A DNA stretch of 7,898 bases, taken from NCBI GenBank assembly GCA_903918125.1, contig CAIXDB010000132.1:1-7898 (forward strand), in the 5' to 3' direction. This stretch comes from an uncultured bacterium (GTDB taxonomy: Bacteria > Patescibacteria > Paceibacteria > UBA9973 > Zambryskibacteraceae). The position numbers were made by a program, and so were the translations under genes. Positions 1,481-7,898 of the stretch are shown here, piece by piece (within the stretch, counting starts at the first letter, position 1; each line of letters opens with the position of its first letter). The notes beneath the pieces were generated by a model, which was not told where the DNA came from, ran no database searches, and saw only the letters and a list, made by a program, of their open reading frames with translations.

Positions 1481-2974
1481 TTACTGCACCTCCCCCCACG
1501 AGATGGTCTGGTACTGACTCGACGTCAGCGGGAAACTTGGTGGCGGGCCGTACAGGAAGTTCGCGTCGTAGCTTGCGGGCTGGCTGGAGTAACCGCTGAC
1601 ACACACGCCACCACTGTTGCTATAACAGAAATATCCCTGGCCGTTCGAAGCGAACATGCCGTACGTGGTAAGCGAGTTGAGCAGGTTGTACGCGCCACAG
1701 TTACTATAATAGTATCGTATCGTCTGACCGTTTTGGGCGATGATGGCACCGTCGATGGTCAAGTTGTTGGCGCTGTTCATACCGACCAGAAAATTCCCTT
1801 GCGCGATGAGTCCGATGGAATCCGTGCCGTCGAAATATGTGTAGGTTAAGTTGTTATTGACGATGATATTTTTGTACGTCGATGAGTTGACGGGAAACGT
1901 GCCGGCGGCGATAGTGATGCGATTGCCTTTGACTTGTCCTTGCACCCAGACATTGTCCTCGAAAAAGAGGACACCGCTCGCCGGATACGCGTACGTGCCG
2001 ACAAGCGTCGTGGCGTTGACGCTCCACGTGCCCCAGCCGGTTTGACTGTCGGCGTTCGTGCATCCGTTCGGCGTGGACAAAAGCGAGTTAACTTTATACA
2101 CCGTAAATGTGTTGTTGGTATTGAGCACCACTTCGTACCCGGACGCACCGGAAAAGCTGAAATCGCACGAGCCGCTGCCGCACGTTTCGCCTTGCGCGGT
2201 CGTTCGTATCGTCGACAAGTCGCTCGTAATACCGCTGAAATCCACCGACGGTACGGGGAATTGTCGCCCGCTCACAAAGACATCAGAACGAGTCGGCACG
2301 GATGCGGGCGGAGTCGGGTCGCCGGAGGGATAACTCACACTCGGAACACTGGTGTACACGCCGAAATGATTGCTACCGTCGTTGAACGTCGATACGGCAC
2401 TCGTCACGACATTGTGCGCAATCGGCTCGGGTGACCCGGCTAGAAATCCGACGCCGACGTTTGAATGAATCGGTCCGGAAACATTGTCTCCGGAACCATA
2501 GTACACCAGACTATTCGTCACCATAACGTATTTTGCCAGTGACGGAATGCCGAGTTTCACTTTTATTTTACGCACCACGGTCGGATCAGTGGCGATGTTG
2601 CCCTGGGACACGACAGTCACGATGGTCGAACCGACCGCCGGCGGTGTGATGGTCAGCGTAAAACTGCCGATGTTGTTATTGTCCTTGTCGTAGTACTGGT
2701 GCACGTACGGTCCGGTCGAAGTGGCGTTGCCGTCTTTGTAGTCAGTCGCATTGTATGCCAAATGCCAGCGATAGTATTCGATACCGGCTTCAGCGATTTG
2801 AAAGGCTTGTTCGCGCTCGCCTTCGAGACGCGAGGCTTTCATGTTAATCCCCGCCCACGCCACGAGTGCGCCGACGATAACCACAGCGATGGAACCGAAC
2901 ACAATCGCTTCGATGAGCAGGTAGCCAGATTGTGCGCTGTGCATTCGAGGAGATTTGGAATTAAATTTTTTCAT
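1481..2974 (-). CDS. Large PilX/GspK-like prepilin with beta-rich C-terminal region
   Basis: A 497-aa type IV pilin-like protein, probably a minor or tip pilin. The leader of 17 residues ends SG, followed by YLLIEAIVFGSIAVVIV. Prepilin peptidase would cut after Gly17, giving Tyr at +1 instead of the usual Phe, and Glu22 at +5. The hydrophobic helix runs about 18-42, followed by the helical stretch EQAFQIAEAGIEYYRW (55-70) typical of PilX-like N-termini. The remainder is extracellular, Ser/Thr/Asn/Gly-rich and beta-predicted. Residues about 334-415 (LFFEDNVWVQGQV onward to IIAQNG) have the short repeated strand pattern of a beta-solenoid or bactofilin-like fold. Six cysteines (265, 270, 305, 426, 450, 458) could form three disulfides. 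The start overlaps the upstream stop in an ATGA, implying translational coupling; Met11 is a possible alternative start. It is the third of three prepilins in V-W-X order. The family call rests on the N-terminus; the ligand is unknown. Confidence 0.85.
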   Translation of the reverse strand: MKKFNSKSPRMHSAQSGYLLIEAIVFGSIAVVIVGALVAWAGINMKASRLEGEREQAFQIAEAGIEYYRWHLAYNATDYKDGNATSTGPYVHQYYDKDNNNIGSFTLTITPPAVGSTIVTVVSQGNIATDPTVVRKIKVKLGIPSLAKYVMVTNSLVYYGSGDNVSGPIHSNVGVGFLAGSPEPIAHNVVTSAVSTFNDGSNHFGVYTSVPSVSYPSGDPTPPASVPTRSDVFVSGRQFPVPSVDFSGITSDLSTIRTTAQGETCGSGSCDFSFSGASGYEVVLNTNNTFTVYKVNSLLSTPNGCTNADSQTGWGTWSVNATTLVGTYAYPASGVLFFEDNVWVQGQVKGNRITIAAGTFPVNSSTYKNIIVNNNLTYTYFDGTDSIGLIAQGNFLVGMNSANNLTIDGAIIAQNGQTIRYYYSNCGAYNLLNSLTTYGMFASNGQGYFCYSNSGGVCVSGYSSQPASYDANFLYGPPPSFPLTSSQYQTISWGEVQ

Positions 2975-3585
2975 AAATTGTCTTTTAAGTTACGCATCAT
3001 GACCTGCGACGTCTCCACGAGCTGTGCCGGCGAACGGTTCGGATTACTGTCAATAATAACAGTAATTTTAACCAAGCGGATGGAGGAAACGTTCACCGGC
3101 TGTGCAAGCGGTGTCGACGTGCCGGCGTAGTTTTCATCGTAATATTGAAATATCGGTGCGGTTGAACTTGCCATGACCGAGCCAATGACCGTCGAGAGCA
3201 CTTCGTTCGCGGGGTTGTACGTTGCTGGTGAGCCGGTTGGCGATGTGATACCCATGGTAATGTTCGTACCGTTCAAAAAGTATCGCACTTGCTCGATTGT
3301 GCCGTCACCATTCACGTCGCTGAAAAATGTGATGCCCGTACTGCTTGCCAGTGCGATGGCGTACGTGCCCGTGGCGGACTGCGTCGTTCCGCGCAGTTGT
3401 GTGACCATCGTTTTCACCACGTGACGCGCCGAGAGCTGTGCGTCCATACTGGCATACAAACTGAATCCGAGGTCGAACACGTCTCCTTCAAACCTACTCA
3501 GCACAAAAATAATGCAGGTTAAAATAGTGAGACTGACGAGCAGTTCGATGAGTGTAAAGCCTTTTTTGTGATGGAAGTGTTGCAT
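2971..3585 (-). CDS. PilW/GspJ-like minor prepilin
   Basis: A 204-aa prepilin. The leader MQHFHHKKG is followed by FTLIELLVSLTILTCIIFVLS, a textbook class III signal: cleavage after Gly9, Phe10 at +1, Glu14 at +5, hydrophobic helix about 10-30. The helix continues through DAQLSARHVVKTMVTQLRG (48-66), and a globular head of about 130 residues follows. Within it, DVNGDGTIE (90-98) has the Asp-x-Asn-x-Asp-Gly spacing of a calcium-binding loop and sits directly before the strand QVRYFLNG. The size and the helix-then-strand layout fit PilW/PulJ minor pseudopilins, which act in the initiating tip complex. The start is 1 nt after the TGA of the 598-aa prepilin and the stop overlaps the next ATG by 4 nt, so it is translationally coupled on both sides. 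No Shine-Dalgarno is visible. The minor-pilin call is secure; the specific equivalence to PilW is inferred from order and length. Confidence 0.85.
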   Translation of the reverse strand: MQHFHHKKGFTLIELLVSLTILTCIIFVLSRFEGDVFDLGFSLYASMDAQLSARHVVKTMVTQLRGTTQSATGTYAIALASSTGITFFSDVNGDGTIEQVRYFLNGTNITMGITSPTGSPATYNPANEVLSTVIGSVMASSTAPIFQYYDENYAGTSTPLAQPVNVSSIRLVKITVIIDSNPNRSPAQLVETSQVMMRNLKDNL

Positions 3586-3586
3586 A

Positions 3587-5383
3587 TCAGTTTGAGACGA
3601 GCGAAATATCCTGACTTTGCCACGACGCCGACAAAGAAAGCGAAGTGACGGTTGTTGTCGCGTAGCCGGCTTTTGAAATCGTCAATGTGTACGGACCGGA
3701 ACTGGTTGTCGATAACCCGCCAAACACCACTTGCCCCGGTGGCGTGCAGGAAGAAGTGAATGTGAATGATACGTCCGACACGTCCGGTGTGAACGTGGTC
3801 GACGCCGTGTTTTCGATAATTTTGTAACGGAAATAGCGATTACCGTTCACGATCGAGTTTATATTTTGGTTTGCGGTGGTGTAATACGTGCTTGCCGTGC
3901 CGTCGGGACCGGTGAAATTCCACGTCCCGCCGTCGTTGTTGCTTGCCACTTGAAACTCGACGCTTGTCGCACCGGTCGCCGGCGGTTGACTGCCCGGCAA
4001 CCAGCTGATGGTTTGAAAATTACTTGGCGATCCGGTATCGAATGATGACGACGTCAGTGTCCCACTCGCGACATACGCGCCAAATATTTTTTTAAGTTTC
4101 ATGTCGCCTGGCACGGTTGTCGTATCGATGTTCCCATCAGTCGAAAAGTACTGCGACGCCACGGTCGAAGTTGCCTGCCCCGGACCGCCCGACCAATCCG
4201 TCTGCGTCATTGTACCTTGACCGGTAACGTATGTAATCGGGCTTGAAAGCGGTGTGCCGGAAAGTGCGACGGTGGCGCCGGAAATCGGCAAACTGGTCGC
4301 ACTATCTCGCACCGTCACCAGAAGCGTTCTCGGATTTTTCGGCTGGACGATAAGTTGCACTGCTTGCGCACCGTTTGGTGCAAGACTGACGGGTGAGAGT
4401 GGGTTTTCGCCGACCAAATCATACGACGAATCGGTGCCGGAAATGGCGTACGAATCCCATTCCATATTGTTGAGAGTCAAACTTGCCGAACCGTTGGTCA
4501 TTTGATTCTGACTATATTTATACACGTTTGGATTCGTGCCGACGAGTTTGCTACCCTGCAGATTGAAGTGATAGCCAGGCACCGGTGTGCAAGTCGAAGT
4601 CTCGGAATTGACGGTGAACGTACTCAACTGGTCGATATTAAAACTGATGGCGGTCACTTGTTGCGCGACGATGGTGGCGTTTGGTTTGCTTGGATGCGGA
4701 TTGGAAACCGTCGTCGATGCCGTACTGTCAGTGGAGTAACCGGGTTCGGTCACGCTAATCTGATACCCGTTGACGCTCGGCGGAGTGTCGAGCACGGTGA
4801 GCTTGCCGGATGCGTTGGTCACATCGTTAATCAAAATGTTCGGCGTAACAGAATTGTTTGTGATAGTCACATTGGCGTTCTCCAGCGGGTTGCCGTTTGC
4901 ATCGAACACGCTGACCACCAGCGCACCGTCGGTCGTGTCGGTGATCAGTCCCTTCGGCGCGACAGTGGTGGTGATGGAAACCGGCGTGAAATCGCGACAG
5001 TTCGGACAGGCGACGTCGACTTCAACCGACTTGTAATCCGCGTCGTAGTGATTACTGTCGAACGGATCGTTTATATTTCTCACAAACGTGGTCACGGTAA
5101 ACTGACTGCCGTCGCGCACGAGTGTCTGCATGTGCGATAACACGCCGGAAGGAATGCCACTGACAATGCCGACTTCCGAGTATGGCATGTTGCGAATGGT
5201 TTCCACTTGCTCATCGAGCACATCGGCCGCGTCGATTTTGGCTTGACTGGTGTAGACAACGTTGAAAATGGACGTGTATGCGGCGTACACGGCGATGATG
5301 ATGACCGTGAACACAGACACGCCGACGACAAGTTCGACGAAACTGAAACCGCGATTAAGCTTTGGTTTGTGTAAAACTTTCAT
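3587..5383 (-). CDS. Giant PilV/GspI-like prepilin with carboxypeptidase-regulatory-like modules
   Basis: A 598-aa prepilin, several times the length of a usual minor pilin (150-200). The leader MKVLHKPKLNRG is followed by FSFVELVVGVSVFTVIIIAVYAAY; cleavage is expected after Gly12, with Phe13 at +1 and Glu17 at +5. A pilin-like head with a CPNC pair (126-129) runs to about 145. Next come beta-sandwich segments resembling CnaB or carboxypeptidase regulatory domains: about 152-226 (VVSVFDANGNPLENANVTI), about 253-347 (YHFNLQGSKLVG, MEWDSY), and a third that begins at 353-376 (LLVTVRDSATSLPISGATVALSG) and resumes at 547-583 (QVVFGGL, YTLTISKAGY). Between these halves sits a module of about 155 residues (392-546) rich in Trp/Tyr (TDWSGG, ASNNDGGTWNF, RYFRYKI). 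It is the first of the three prepilins, 14 nt after pilC. It probably projects an adhesive or stalk-like head from the pilus tip. The signal is certain; module names are by pattern only. Confidence 0.85.
   Translation of the reverse strand: MKVLHKPKLNRGFSFVELVVGVSVFTVIIIAVYAAYTSIFNVVYTSQAKIDAADVLDEQVETIRNMPYSEVGIVSGIPSGVLSHMQTLVRDGSQFTVTTFVRNINDPFDSNHYDADYKSVEVDVACPNCRDFTPVSITTTVAPKGLITDTTDGALVVSVFDANGNPLENANVTITNNSVTPNILINDVTNASGKLTVLDTPPSVNGYQISVTEPGYSTDSTASTTVSNPHPSKPNATIVAQQVTAISFNIDQLSTFTVNSETSTCTPVPGYHFNLQGSKLVGTNPNVYKYSQNQMTNGSASLTLNNMEWDSYAISGTDSSYDLVGENPLSPVSLAPNGAQAVQLIVQPKNPRTLLVTVRDSATSLPISGATVALSGTPLSSPITYVTGQGTMTQTDWSGGPGQATSTVASQYFSTDGNIDTTTVPGDMKLKKIFGAYVASGTLTSSSFDTGSPSNFQTISWLPGSQPPATGATSVEFQVASNNDGGTWNFTGPDGTASTYYTTANQNINSIVNGNRYFRYKIIENTASTTFTPDVSDVSFTFTSSCTPPGQVVFGGLSTTSSGPYTLTISKAGYATTTVTSLSLSASWQSQDISLVSN
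3746..4210 (-). other. Module inserted inside the third Ig-like domain of the giant prepilin
   Basis: Codons about 392-546 encode a Trp/Asp/Asn-rich block that splits a carboxypeptidase-regulatory-like domain between its 'GATVALSG' strand and its 'GQVVFGGL...YTLTISKAGY' end. The block has its own internal logic: YFSTDGNIDTTTVPGD, SGTLTSSSFDTGS, FQTISWLPG, VEFQVASNNDGGTWNF, RYFRYKI, DVSFTF. This looks like a jelly-roll (discoidin or carbohydrate-binding-like) beta sandwich. Boundaries are approximate. Reading frame and base composition continue without a break, so this is a domain insertion and not a DNA rearrangement artefact. The fold assignment is inference. Confidence 0.5.
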
Positions 5384-5397
5384 ACTGTCAAAATAAA

Positions 5398-6603
5398 TTA
5401 CAGGGAGTTGGCTAAGGAGTACGTTGGGGTCAACATCGCCAGTGCGAAAAATCCGACCGCGGCGCCGATGACAATCATGAGCAACGGTTCGATGACCGAC
5501 GACATGTCCTTTGTTTTCTGGTCGACTTCCTCCTCGTAAAACTCGGCAACGGACAGCAACATGTCCCCTATTTTGCCCGTTTCCTCGCCCACCGAAACCA
5601 TTTCACCGACGAAGAGCGGGTACAAATTGTCGTGCGATAAGAAAATTGCCGAGATCTGGTCGCCTTTCTGGATGGTGTTCTGAATTTCATCGAGCACGTC
5701 ACGATAGTATGAGTTTTGAATGACTTGTTTGGTCACGCCGATCGCCACGACAATGTCCACGCCGGAGGAGAGCAGTGACGACAGCGTGCGTGTGGTGCGA
5801 GCGGCGTTCACTTGTACAACCATTTCGCCGATAATTGGAAAATGGATGGACACAAAATCCACCAGTCGCTGTCCGCGCTTGGTGCGAAAGGCGAGCGTGC
5901 CAAGAAACACGATAAGCGCTGTGCCGAGAATAGCGATGATGTAGTCGTTTCGCAAGAAATCACTGATGGAAATGACTAGTCGAGTCGACCACGGCAACTG
6001 CACGCCGAGTCCGGTAAACGTGGCGGTCAAGGTCGGCACCATGAAGACCATCATGAGCACGCCGATGACGATCATGAGCGAGAAAATAACGGCCGGATAC
6101 ATCATCGCACCTTTGATTTTTTTGCCGAGAAGGTAGGTTTTCTCCATTTGCAATGCCACATTTTTGAGCGCCGTACCCAAGTTTCCCGACTCCTCGCCGG
6201 CTTTGACCATCGAGACGAACAAGTCGGAGAACACGCGAGGATATTTACTCATCGACTCGGAGAGCGTCACACCTTTTGAGAGCGATTCGTTGAGACTCAC
6301 AAGCACTTCCTTTAATTTGCCTTTTGCCTGACGCTCCATGATGGACAATCCGCGGGTAATGGGCAGTCCAGCGTCGATCATCGAGCCGAGATTGCGCGCA
6401 AACATGATTTTGTCGTGCGCTTTCACTCCGCTGAAAATGTTCAAGTCCATGGCAAAGACGGACTTCTTCGCTTCCTCGACGGAAATGATGGTTGTGCCGT
6501 CTTTTTTAAGCGAATGAAAGAGTGTCGCCTTGTCCTTCGCCTCGACATCGGCCTCCGTCGGCTCGCCCTGCGCATCGATTATTTTGTAATGAAAAAGAGT
6601 CAT
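5398..6603 (-). CDS. pilC: Type IV pilus inner-membrane platform protein, PilC/GspF family
   Basis: Polytopic inner-membrane protein that couples the PilB ATPase to pilin insertion. It is 401 aa, the normal family length. The N-terminal soluble segment begins TLFHYKIIDAQGEPTEADVEA, as in most PilC proteins, which supports the ATG at 6603. Two T2SSF repeats are visible: about 66-188 (MFARNLGSMIDAGLPITRGLSIM, then VKAGEESGNLGTAL at 133-146) and about 269-391 (RTTRTLSSLLSSGVDIVVAI, then VSVGEETGKIGDML at 336-349). Membrane segments are at about 168-190, 221-239 and 371-391. The duplicated GEESG/GEETG motifs mark the two halves. It sits 14 nt after pilB and 14 nt before the first prepilin, in the order seen in many pilus operons. 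No Shine-Dalgarno is present in the AT-rich leader. Nothing appears truncated. Confidence 0.95.
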   Translation of the reverse strand: MTLFHYKIIDAQGEPTEADVEAKDKATLFHSLKKDGTTIISVEEAKKSVFAMDLNIFSGVKAHDKIMFARNLGSMIDAGLPITRGLSIMERQAKGKLKEVLVSLNESLSKGVTLSESMSKYPRVFSDLFVSMVKAGEESGNLGTALKNVALQMEKTYLLGKKIKGAMMYPAVIFSLMIVIGVLMMVFMVPTLTATFTGLGVQLPWSTRLVISISDFLRNDYIIAILGTALIVFLGTLAFRTKRGQRLVDFVSIHFPIIGEMVVQVNAARTTRTLSSLLSSGVDIVVAIGVTKQVIQNSYYRDVLDEIQNTIQKGDQISAIFLSHDNLYPLFVGEMVSVGEETGKIGDMLLSVAEFYEEEVDQKTKDMSSVIEPLLMIVIGAAVGFFALAMLTPTYSLANSL

Positions 6604-6617
6604 GAAATATATTAAAA

Positions 6618-7898
6618 TTATTCCGAAACCACACGCAGCACCTCTTCAATCGTCGTCAGTCCTTGCACGCATTGGAAAATCCCGTCCTCGATCATGGTCA
6701 GCATGCCTTCGGCTTCGGCTTGAATCTGGATAGCGTCCGCCGTGCCGGATTTGAGAATGATTTCCTTGATCGCCGGCGAAACTTTCAGGATTTCGTGAAT
6801 ACCGAGTCGCCCGCCGTAGCCGTCTTCCGAAGCCACGCCTTTTTTCGGTCGATAAAAAGCGATTTTCTCCCATGTGTCGCCCTTGCTCACCACTTTTTCG
6901 TCCTTGAGTGCAGTCAAAACTTTGTCGAGATTGACCGACTTGCCGAGTGTCGCCAACTCTGTTTTGGTCAGAAAATATTTTTCTTTTTGCTCGGCGACGA
7001 GTTTGCGCACGAGACGTTGCGCGATGATGATGTTCACCGTCGAAACGATGAGAAACGACTCGACTTTCATATCAACAAGACGCGGCACTGCGCCGGCCGC
7101 GGAGTTGGTGTGCAAGGTCGAAAGCACCACGTGTCCGGTGAGTGATGCGTTGATGGCAAGCGAAGCCGTTTCATTATCGCGGATTTCACCAACCATAATC
7201 ACGTCCGGATCCTGTCGCAGAAGCGTGCGCAAACCGTCAGAAAAAGAGAAACCAATTTCCGGACGAACCTGCGTTTGATTGATGCGTTTCATTTGATACT
7301 CGATCGGGTCCTCGATGGTGGAAATGTTCACGTCCGGCGTGTTCAAAATGTCGAGAATGGTGTACAGCGTCGTCGTTTTTCCCGAGCCGGTCGGTCCGGT
7401 GGCGAGGATGATGCCGGTGGTGGACTTCAGTGCGCCGTGAATGCGCTCGAGTCCCGTGCCGTGAAAAGCCAAACCTTCGAGGGTGAATCCGGAAACCGAC
7501 TCGCGCAACAAGCGCATAACGGTTTTCTCGCCATAGTACGTCGGCAAAGTCGATACGCGGAAAGAAACTTTCTCGCCATTCATGTCGATTTTGAAGCGAC
7601 CGTCCTGCGGAAGACGTTTCTCGTCGAGCTTGAGCGAGGAGAGCACTTTGATGCGCGCGGTGATAGATGCCGCGATATTTTTCGGCAAAATCATGGCGTC
7701 GTGAAGCAAGCCGTCGATGCGATAGCGCACGAGAAGCTGCGCTTCCTGCGGTTCGATGTGAATGTCTGATGCGTTTTGCAGAATGGCATGTTTCAAAAGC
7801 GTGTCCACGATACGAACCACCGGTACGTCGTCCGCCAACTTTTTCAAATCTTCTTCCGACGTTTTTTCATCACCCGTCACGTCAGCGATATTTTTCAA
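6618..7898 (-). CDS. pilB: Type IV pilus assembly ATPase PilB/GspE, C-terminal part (5' end outside window)
   Basis: Hexameric cytoplasmic ATPase powering pilus extension. The visible 426 residues include the linker/N2 domain with SDIHIEP (44-50) and RYRIDG (58-63), then the ATPase core: Walker A GPTGSGKT (168-175), Asp box STIEDPIEY (193-201), Walker B DPDVIMVGEIRD (230-241) and His box TGHVVLSTLHT (254-264). The C-terminus IEEVLRVVSE is typical. The tetracysteine zinc motif of many GspE/PilB proteins is absent: QRLVRKL is followed by VAEQ instead of a CxxC, and the second pair before GYGGRLGIHE (360-369) is replaced by KKGVASED. The first codon in the window is a TTG, but family alignment indicates the protein extends perhaps 130 or more residues upstream, so it is internal. 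The preserved order Walker A, Asp box, Walker B, His box and the prepilin neighbours favour PilB over PilT. Confidence 0.95.
   Translation of the reverse strand: MKNIADVTGDEKTSEEDLKKLADDVPVVRIVDTLLKHAILQNASDIHIEPQEAQLLVRYRIDGLLHDAMILPKNIAASITARIKVLSSLKLDEKRLPQDGRFKIDMNGEKVSFRVSTLPTYYGEKTVMRLLRESVSGFTLEGLAFHGTGLERIHGALKSTTGIILATGPTGSGKTTTLYTILDILNTPDVNISTIEDPIEYQMKRINQTQVRPEIGFSFSDGLRTLLRQDPDVIMVGEIRDNETASLAINASLTGHVVLSTLHTNSAAGAVPRLVDMKVESFLIVSTVNIIIAQRLVRKLVAEQKEKYFLTKTELATLGKSVNLDKVLTALKDEKVVSKGDTWEKIAFYRPKKGVASEDGYGGRLGIHEILKVSPAIKEIILKSGTADAIQIQAEAEGMLTMIEDGIFQCVQGLTTIEEVLRVVSE

Follow-up and report, generated by a model that had tools for sequence, protein, structure and literature searches.

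A predicted jelly-roll module nested in a stalk domain of a putative minor type IV pilin from a Patescibacteria-type cell

Introduction

Contig CAIXDB010000132.1 (7,898 nucleotides; this whole stretch is called the window) encodes a 598-residue prepilin on its minus strand. It raises the question of how a complete domain comes to lie inside another domain of a pilin, and what it could do there. An initial annotation had proposed that a separate module interrupts the third carboxypeptidase-regulatory (CPR) domain of this protein. We confirm that the nested domain is real. Our preferred reading, to which we give a probability of roughly 0.6, is that an ultra-small Patescibacteria-type cell (Paceibacteria/Parcubacteria-like) makes the protein as a minor type IV pilin, which probably sits at the pilus tip and displays an adhesive jelly-roll module.

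A separate domain interrupts the third stalk domain

CPR domains are transthyretin-like. The prepilin is built of a pilin helix, a head and three stalk domains, and the third of these (CPR3) is split from about residue 388 to about residue 550. Its N-terminal half (residues 351–388, 4220..4333, minus strand) and its C-terminal half (residues 550–598, 3590..3736, minus strand) flank the insert (residues 389–549, 3737..4219, minus strand). Joined, the two flanks match PF13620 with 38.6 bits over profile positions 2–72 of 82, above the curated cut-off of 32.3; scored apart they give 15.8 and 21.5 bits, and only the joined form passes. In the predicted structure the insert occupies the loop that connects strands three and four of CPR3, and both of its ends would therefore be tied to the stalk. 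The nested stretch had originally been delimited as residues 392–546; the nesting stands, the boundaries do not, and the Asn-rich composition ascribed to the insert finds no support. The G+C content of the insert (53.3%) is near that of the remaining gene (52.6%), thus there is no sign of recent import.

It is very improbable that residues 352–598 instead form one continuous, unusual fold, the outcome that the initial annotation had named as speaking against nesting. A whole-protein Pfam scan does place the best PF13620 stretch elsewhere, at 157–234, with a second stretch that passes E 1. The joined-flank match, the predicted separate folding of the insert, superposition on transthyretin and the existence of relatives with an uninterrupted CPR3 all contradict such a fold. 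Profile searches recovered homologues both with the insert and without it.

Fold and affinities of the insert

Modelled alone, the insert is predicted to be a jelly roll (predicted local distance difference test score, pLDDT, 89.8; predicted template modelling score, pTM, 0.85), in agreement with the fold first suggested for it. Foldseek comparison with the PDB gave CBM6 (E 0.0065) and CBM86 (E 0.0069), and one of 35 inserts, not that of the window, matches F5_F8_type_C (E 2.3e-4). Phage tail and virion proteins give the best matches by fold. A search of BFVD returned eight matches with E up to 0.001, the named ones from phage or archaeal virus, which indicate fold likeness only. The phage tail jelly rolls of SU10, Pa223 and GP4 are 9–16% identical to the insert and occur in another context. 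We do not claim a phage origin, as the window insert matches PHROG families weakly: one of unknown function at 7e-4 and a minor tail protein at 0.05. Two further candidates were rejected as chance: a sequence search of solved structures gave 22 distinct sequences, all coronavirus spike, at E 0.035 or worse, and Lipocalin_4 matched the insert alone at a Pfam E of 0.018, under the cut-off.

Relatives with and without the insert

The search for homologues of the prepilin gave 679 at E 0.001 or better. Nearly all of the best 120 are full-length and 51–68% identical, so the nested form is widespread, in a list biased to the closest relatives. In the class of G001, 383 genomes were searched by profile; 325 gave a match, many of them weak. 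The loci compared below are the stronger matches among those listed, three candidates having been scored in most genomes, and their proportions are not population frequencies. An open reading frame (ORF) was counted as a chassis row if its profile match started by position 50, reached position 210 and exceeded 80 bits (n = 113). L003 and L004 (repeats of L001 and L002) and L027, L089 and L129 (which fail the match rule) were left out, and L154 lies outside the 113. L018 is the second L088 gene and is counted twice, so that the 36 rows with an insert in CPR3, window included, represent 35 genes. The remaining rows comprise 43 with no guest at the compared sites, 28 whose second stalk domain (CPR2) contains a jelly roll, three with a GH43-like region in CPR2 and three that are other or unassigned. 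Nested domains had been thought rare in pilins; this is partly wrong, given the precedents of GspK and ComZ (see below). Moreover, a state was assigned to 110 rows, and 67 of them have a stalk-domain guest; the rows were picked from strong matches and give no population frequency.

The cleanest empty form at the same locus is L036. Its profile match runs from 6 to 395 and resumes at 549–597 with zero residues between, and its CPR3 is whole (PF13620 at 360–430). L036 is placed inside the insert-bearing rows; the smallest well-supported set that holds it has 12 rows (99/92). Grouping 35 insert rows without L036 was rejected in an approximately unbiased (AU) test (p = 0.003), for a clade defined after an earlier tree had been seen; the tree was built from L036, all but one of the 36 insert rows and 13 rows chosen from the other 76. 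Because L036 sits among insert-bearing rows, loss is the simplest reading, and L036 has most likely lost the insert. A search for the module elsewhere in the L036 genome, which had no positive control, found nothing.

Other guests in other loops

Other loops of the chassis carry guests as well, and on the model of the window protein these sites are predicted to lie between strands. In relatives the guest of the CPR2 loop at about 262–276 may be a jelly roll, a GH43-like region or an ice-binding-like domain, and that of the loop at about 295–304 is an LVIVD propeller. The jelly roll of the 28 CPR2 rows sits at profile position ∼ 268 and probably belongs to the same family as the CPR3 insert: a profile of 25 of the 28 rows compares with the CPR3 inserts at a probability of 94.6, and the CPR3-insert profile reaches eight of the 28 rows at E < 0.01. 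L057, L058 and L121 were outside the CPR2 profile and read alike by eye. The GH43-like region matches PF04616 in L073 (E 4.7e-10) and L075 (E 9.6e-7; 28.9 bits, under the Pfam cut-off of 32.2); L072 resembles L075 by eye and has no GH43 match. All three end near profile position 350, without CPR3.

Three arrangements are single cases. L154:2353-4782 (minus strand) has two nested guests, an ice-binding-like domain in CPR2 (PF11999, E 1.4e-61, full profile) and a jelly roll in CPR3. L088:1387-5355 (plus strand; 1322 residues) bears an LVIVD propeller (PF08309, E 1.1e-146, 13 stretches) at about position 300 of the second stalk domain. L089 has ∼ 290 extra residues in the pilin head, near position 109–116. 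The first L088 pilin contains a jelly roll besides its propeller, and L088 encodes a second chassis pilin (7502-9379, plus strand); by eye, each is followed by two minor-pilin-like ORFs.

That the stalk loops of relatives hold other domains, or none, suggests a pilus that exchanges its working parts. We tentatively extend this, at somewhat less than even odds, to a payload chassis. In this view a pilin with conserved head and stalk, encoded at one place in the operon, would take up whole unrelated domains in its loops (at ∼ 110 in the head, at ∼ 268 and ∼ 300 in the second stalk domain and at ∼ 388 in the third), and these domains would be gained, lost and exchanged, so that pili of Paceibacteria-type lineages could reach different partners or surfaces.

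The jelly-roll module in other proteins

Domains related to the insert occur in proteins of ∼ 270 to 2000 residues, with or without a recognizable pilin start, and the insert profile matches in 92 of 379 genomes of a phylum sample. In L079 and L159 the related domain is the C-terminal module. ORFs of ∼ 615–700 residues were considered as chassis with a CPR2 guest and rejected: all 20 that were fetched have the domain C-terminally, the head and first CPR domain of the chassis profile find no match in any of them, and its pilin helix weakly matches ten. In L148, L149, L152 and L158 the jelly roll is itself split by some 300–400 residues, which contain LVIVD repeats (L148, L152), a LamG domain (L158) or nothing named (L149). 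Three of these four have an N_methyl match, and the pilin start of L148 was read by eye. The jelly roll, nested in the chassis but split elsewhere, is therefore guest in one pilin and host in another. L077:1160-5335 (minus strand; 1391 residues) matches the jelly-roll part of the profile six times along its length and is a possible repeat adhesin.

The prepilin and its operon

The N-terminus has the features of a type IV prepilin: a class III leader, cleavage motif G|F, Glu at +5 and a hydrophobic helix. The pilin helix (residues 13–64, 5192..5347, minus strand; 15–64 in the model) follows the motif G12|F13...E17, whose three residues are each at least 90% conserved in 80 aligned rows. N_methyl matches the window protein at E 5.9e-4 (19.8 bits, slightly under the Pfam cut-off of 21.2) and 73 of 80 homologues at E 0.01. 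The head (residues 65–150, 4934..5191) is followed by the first stalk domain, an intact CPR domain (residues 153–240, 4664..4927), and by the second, a β-domain (residues 243–350, 4334..4657), all on the minus strand. The latter is called CPR2 by position; neither Pfam nor profile comparison (probabilities 2.0 and 3.0) supports the name. C126, C129, C265 and C546 are invariant across the 80 rows; one of them lies at the CPR2 guest site and another where the CPR3 guest ends.

On the minus strand the gene order is PilB/GspE ATPase, PilC/GspF platform protein, 598-residue prepilin, 204-residue prepilin, 497-residue protein, triose-phosphate isomerase and phosphoglycerate kinase. The assembly ATPase gene (6618..7898, minus strand; T2SSE, Pfam E 1.6e-119) is truncated by the end of the window, and the platform protein is encoded at 5398..6603 (minus strand; T2SSF, Pfam E 8.8e-54). 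Next to the large prepilin is the second one, of 204 residues (2971..3585, minus strand; N_methyl, Pfam E 5.8e-7). The ORF for the 497-residue protein (1481..2974, minus strand) is assigned to the PilX/GspK place from its position; Pfam and NCBIfam scans gave weak matches and no clear family, and its repeat-like make-up may indicate a β-solenoid. The two glycolytic genes (3-1411), recognized by eye, come after the pilin operon. They do so in L001 and L002 as well (in L002 with ORFs between), and in L036 they adjoin the operon on the opposite strand.

Most rows of each chassis type have a PilC homologue upstream and, downstream, a gene homologous to that of the 204-residue pilin; the operon context is common to the types. 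Named homologues of the prepilin include Parcubacteria, Zambryskibacteria and Patescibacteria metagenome-assembled genomes, so a Patescibacteria-type cell is likely; this bears out the earlier suggestion of a cell like those of the candidate phyla radiation.

Relation to known pilins

Like PilB and PilC of Streptococcus sanguinis, the window protein would combine a polymerizing pilin part with an extra domain of general use (PMC8179133). The S. sanguinis module sits on a short linker, whereas that of the window lies inside a stalk domain with both ends tied. Of the features by which Raynaud et al. (2021; PMC8179133) define modular pilins, the combination of a pilin module with a domain that also occurs outside pilus biology is present here, to judge from model and sequence; a short linker joining the module is not, the module being nested in CPR3. 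A further feature is a direct part of the module in a pilus function, which here would be attachment. PF13620 is among the common extra domains in their survey. A large inserted domain in a minor pilin thought to be at the tip is known from GspK of the type II secretion system (PMC7248040, PMC8179133) and from ComZ of Thermus (PMC7248040); there the insertion is in the pilin part, whereas here it is in a CPR stalk domain, and only L089 has a head insert.

Within the Patescibacteria, PilX1 and PilX2 of Nanosynbacter lyticus TM7x are minor pilins with a jelly-roll-like or propeller domain (PMC12206443). The likeness is one of description; their domains are C-terminal on PilX-type proteins and not nested in a CPR domain. 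PilX2, which has the propeller domain, contributes to host binding: Saccharibacteria that lack pilX2 show reduced binding of hosts, 4.6% versus 10.6% (PMC12206443). In S. sanguinis, host proteins are bound by the module of PilB (PMC8179133). By analogy, these two sets of experiments would be the strongest outside support for a contact function; the nesting, the predicted fold class, the conservation, the uninterrupted homologue and the other guests at the same operon position were computed here. In Paceibacteria that live on methanogens, clusters of pilin genes are conserved (PMC9763046).

Both modular pilins and pilins with an inserted domain are thus already known; new here are the position of the guest inside a stalk domain and a single chassis that carries different guests in its loops. 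Pilins with LVIVD may already have been published, under IPR013211, which we take to be that family. A Falkowbacteria pilin has 12 copies of IPR013211 (PMC8179133). Literature searches, which left most subscription journals outside their scope, gave one review on nested or inserted domains in minor pilins, no paper on LVIVD pilins, none on modular pilins in the candidate phyla radiation and no title or abstract describing stalk-nested pilin guests; the survey table of PMC8179133 may list such architectures.

Function of the nested module

In the reading we prefer, the N-terminal helix and head would place the protein in the filament, and the three β-domains would act as a stalk that lifts the module away from it. 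Jelly-roll domains of this kind often bind sugars or proteins. The module could make contact by binding a ligand; the likeliest candidates are glycans and surface proteins on a partner cell or a surface. Pilus retraction might then pull the cells together. The large size, the neighbouring pilin genes and the precedent of modular pilins point to the tip. Several results weigh against an adhesive tip pilin. No Foldseek match of the insert in the PDB reaches E 1e-3, at least 33 of the 35 inserts, that of the window included, have no Pfam match at 0.01, and no ligand site was identified in the insert. Family matches of the members are mixed (ComGE 64/80, GspJ 31/80, GspI 27/80), and NCBIfam does not settle the kind of minor pilin. 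The insert is better conserved (0.72) than the halves of its host domain (0.63 and 0.56; 80 homologues), which argues against fast tracking of a host; the first CPR domain (0.76) and the head (0.74) are both above it. Finally, 43 of 113 rows have no guest at the compared sites and L036 has apparently lost the module, which is therefore dispensable in some lineages.

The high conservation would suit an insert with a structural role, one that caps or stiffens the tip protein or sets its size, and that has no binding partner outside the pilus. We consider this unlikely and still a serious rival. The phage tail and virion proteins that match its fold best are possibly structural, and the GspK insertion has been proposed to hold the complex at the tip and to shield a cavity there (PMC7248040). 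It is harder to reconcile with the apparent loss in L036, which leaves CPR3 intact, with the guest-free rows and with related domains that are terminal modules in other proteins. The variety of guests raises another doubtful alternative, that several loops are simply permissive and unrelated guests confer different tasks (adhesion, contact with substrate or ice, perhaps glycan cleavage) in place of one adhesin function. The GH43-like (L073, L075), LVIVD (L088) and ice-binding-like (L154) guests on the same chassis speak for it, but the L075 match is below the cut-off, L072 has none, all three GH43-type rows are without CPR3, and the propeller and the ice-binding-like domain are known from one chassis each.

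Little is understood of how Patescibacteria select their hosts and stay attached to them. Loops of stalk domains are natural insertion sites in which both ends of a guest stay anchored under pull. Where nested domains are exchangeable within a conserved pilus protein, each is a candidate binding part that can be expressed alone and tested.
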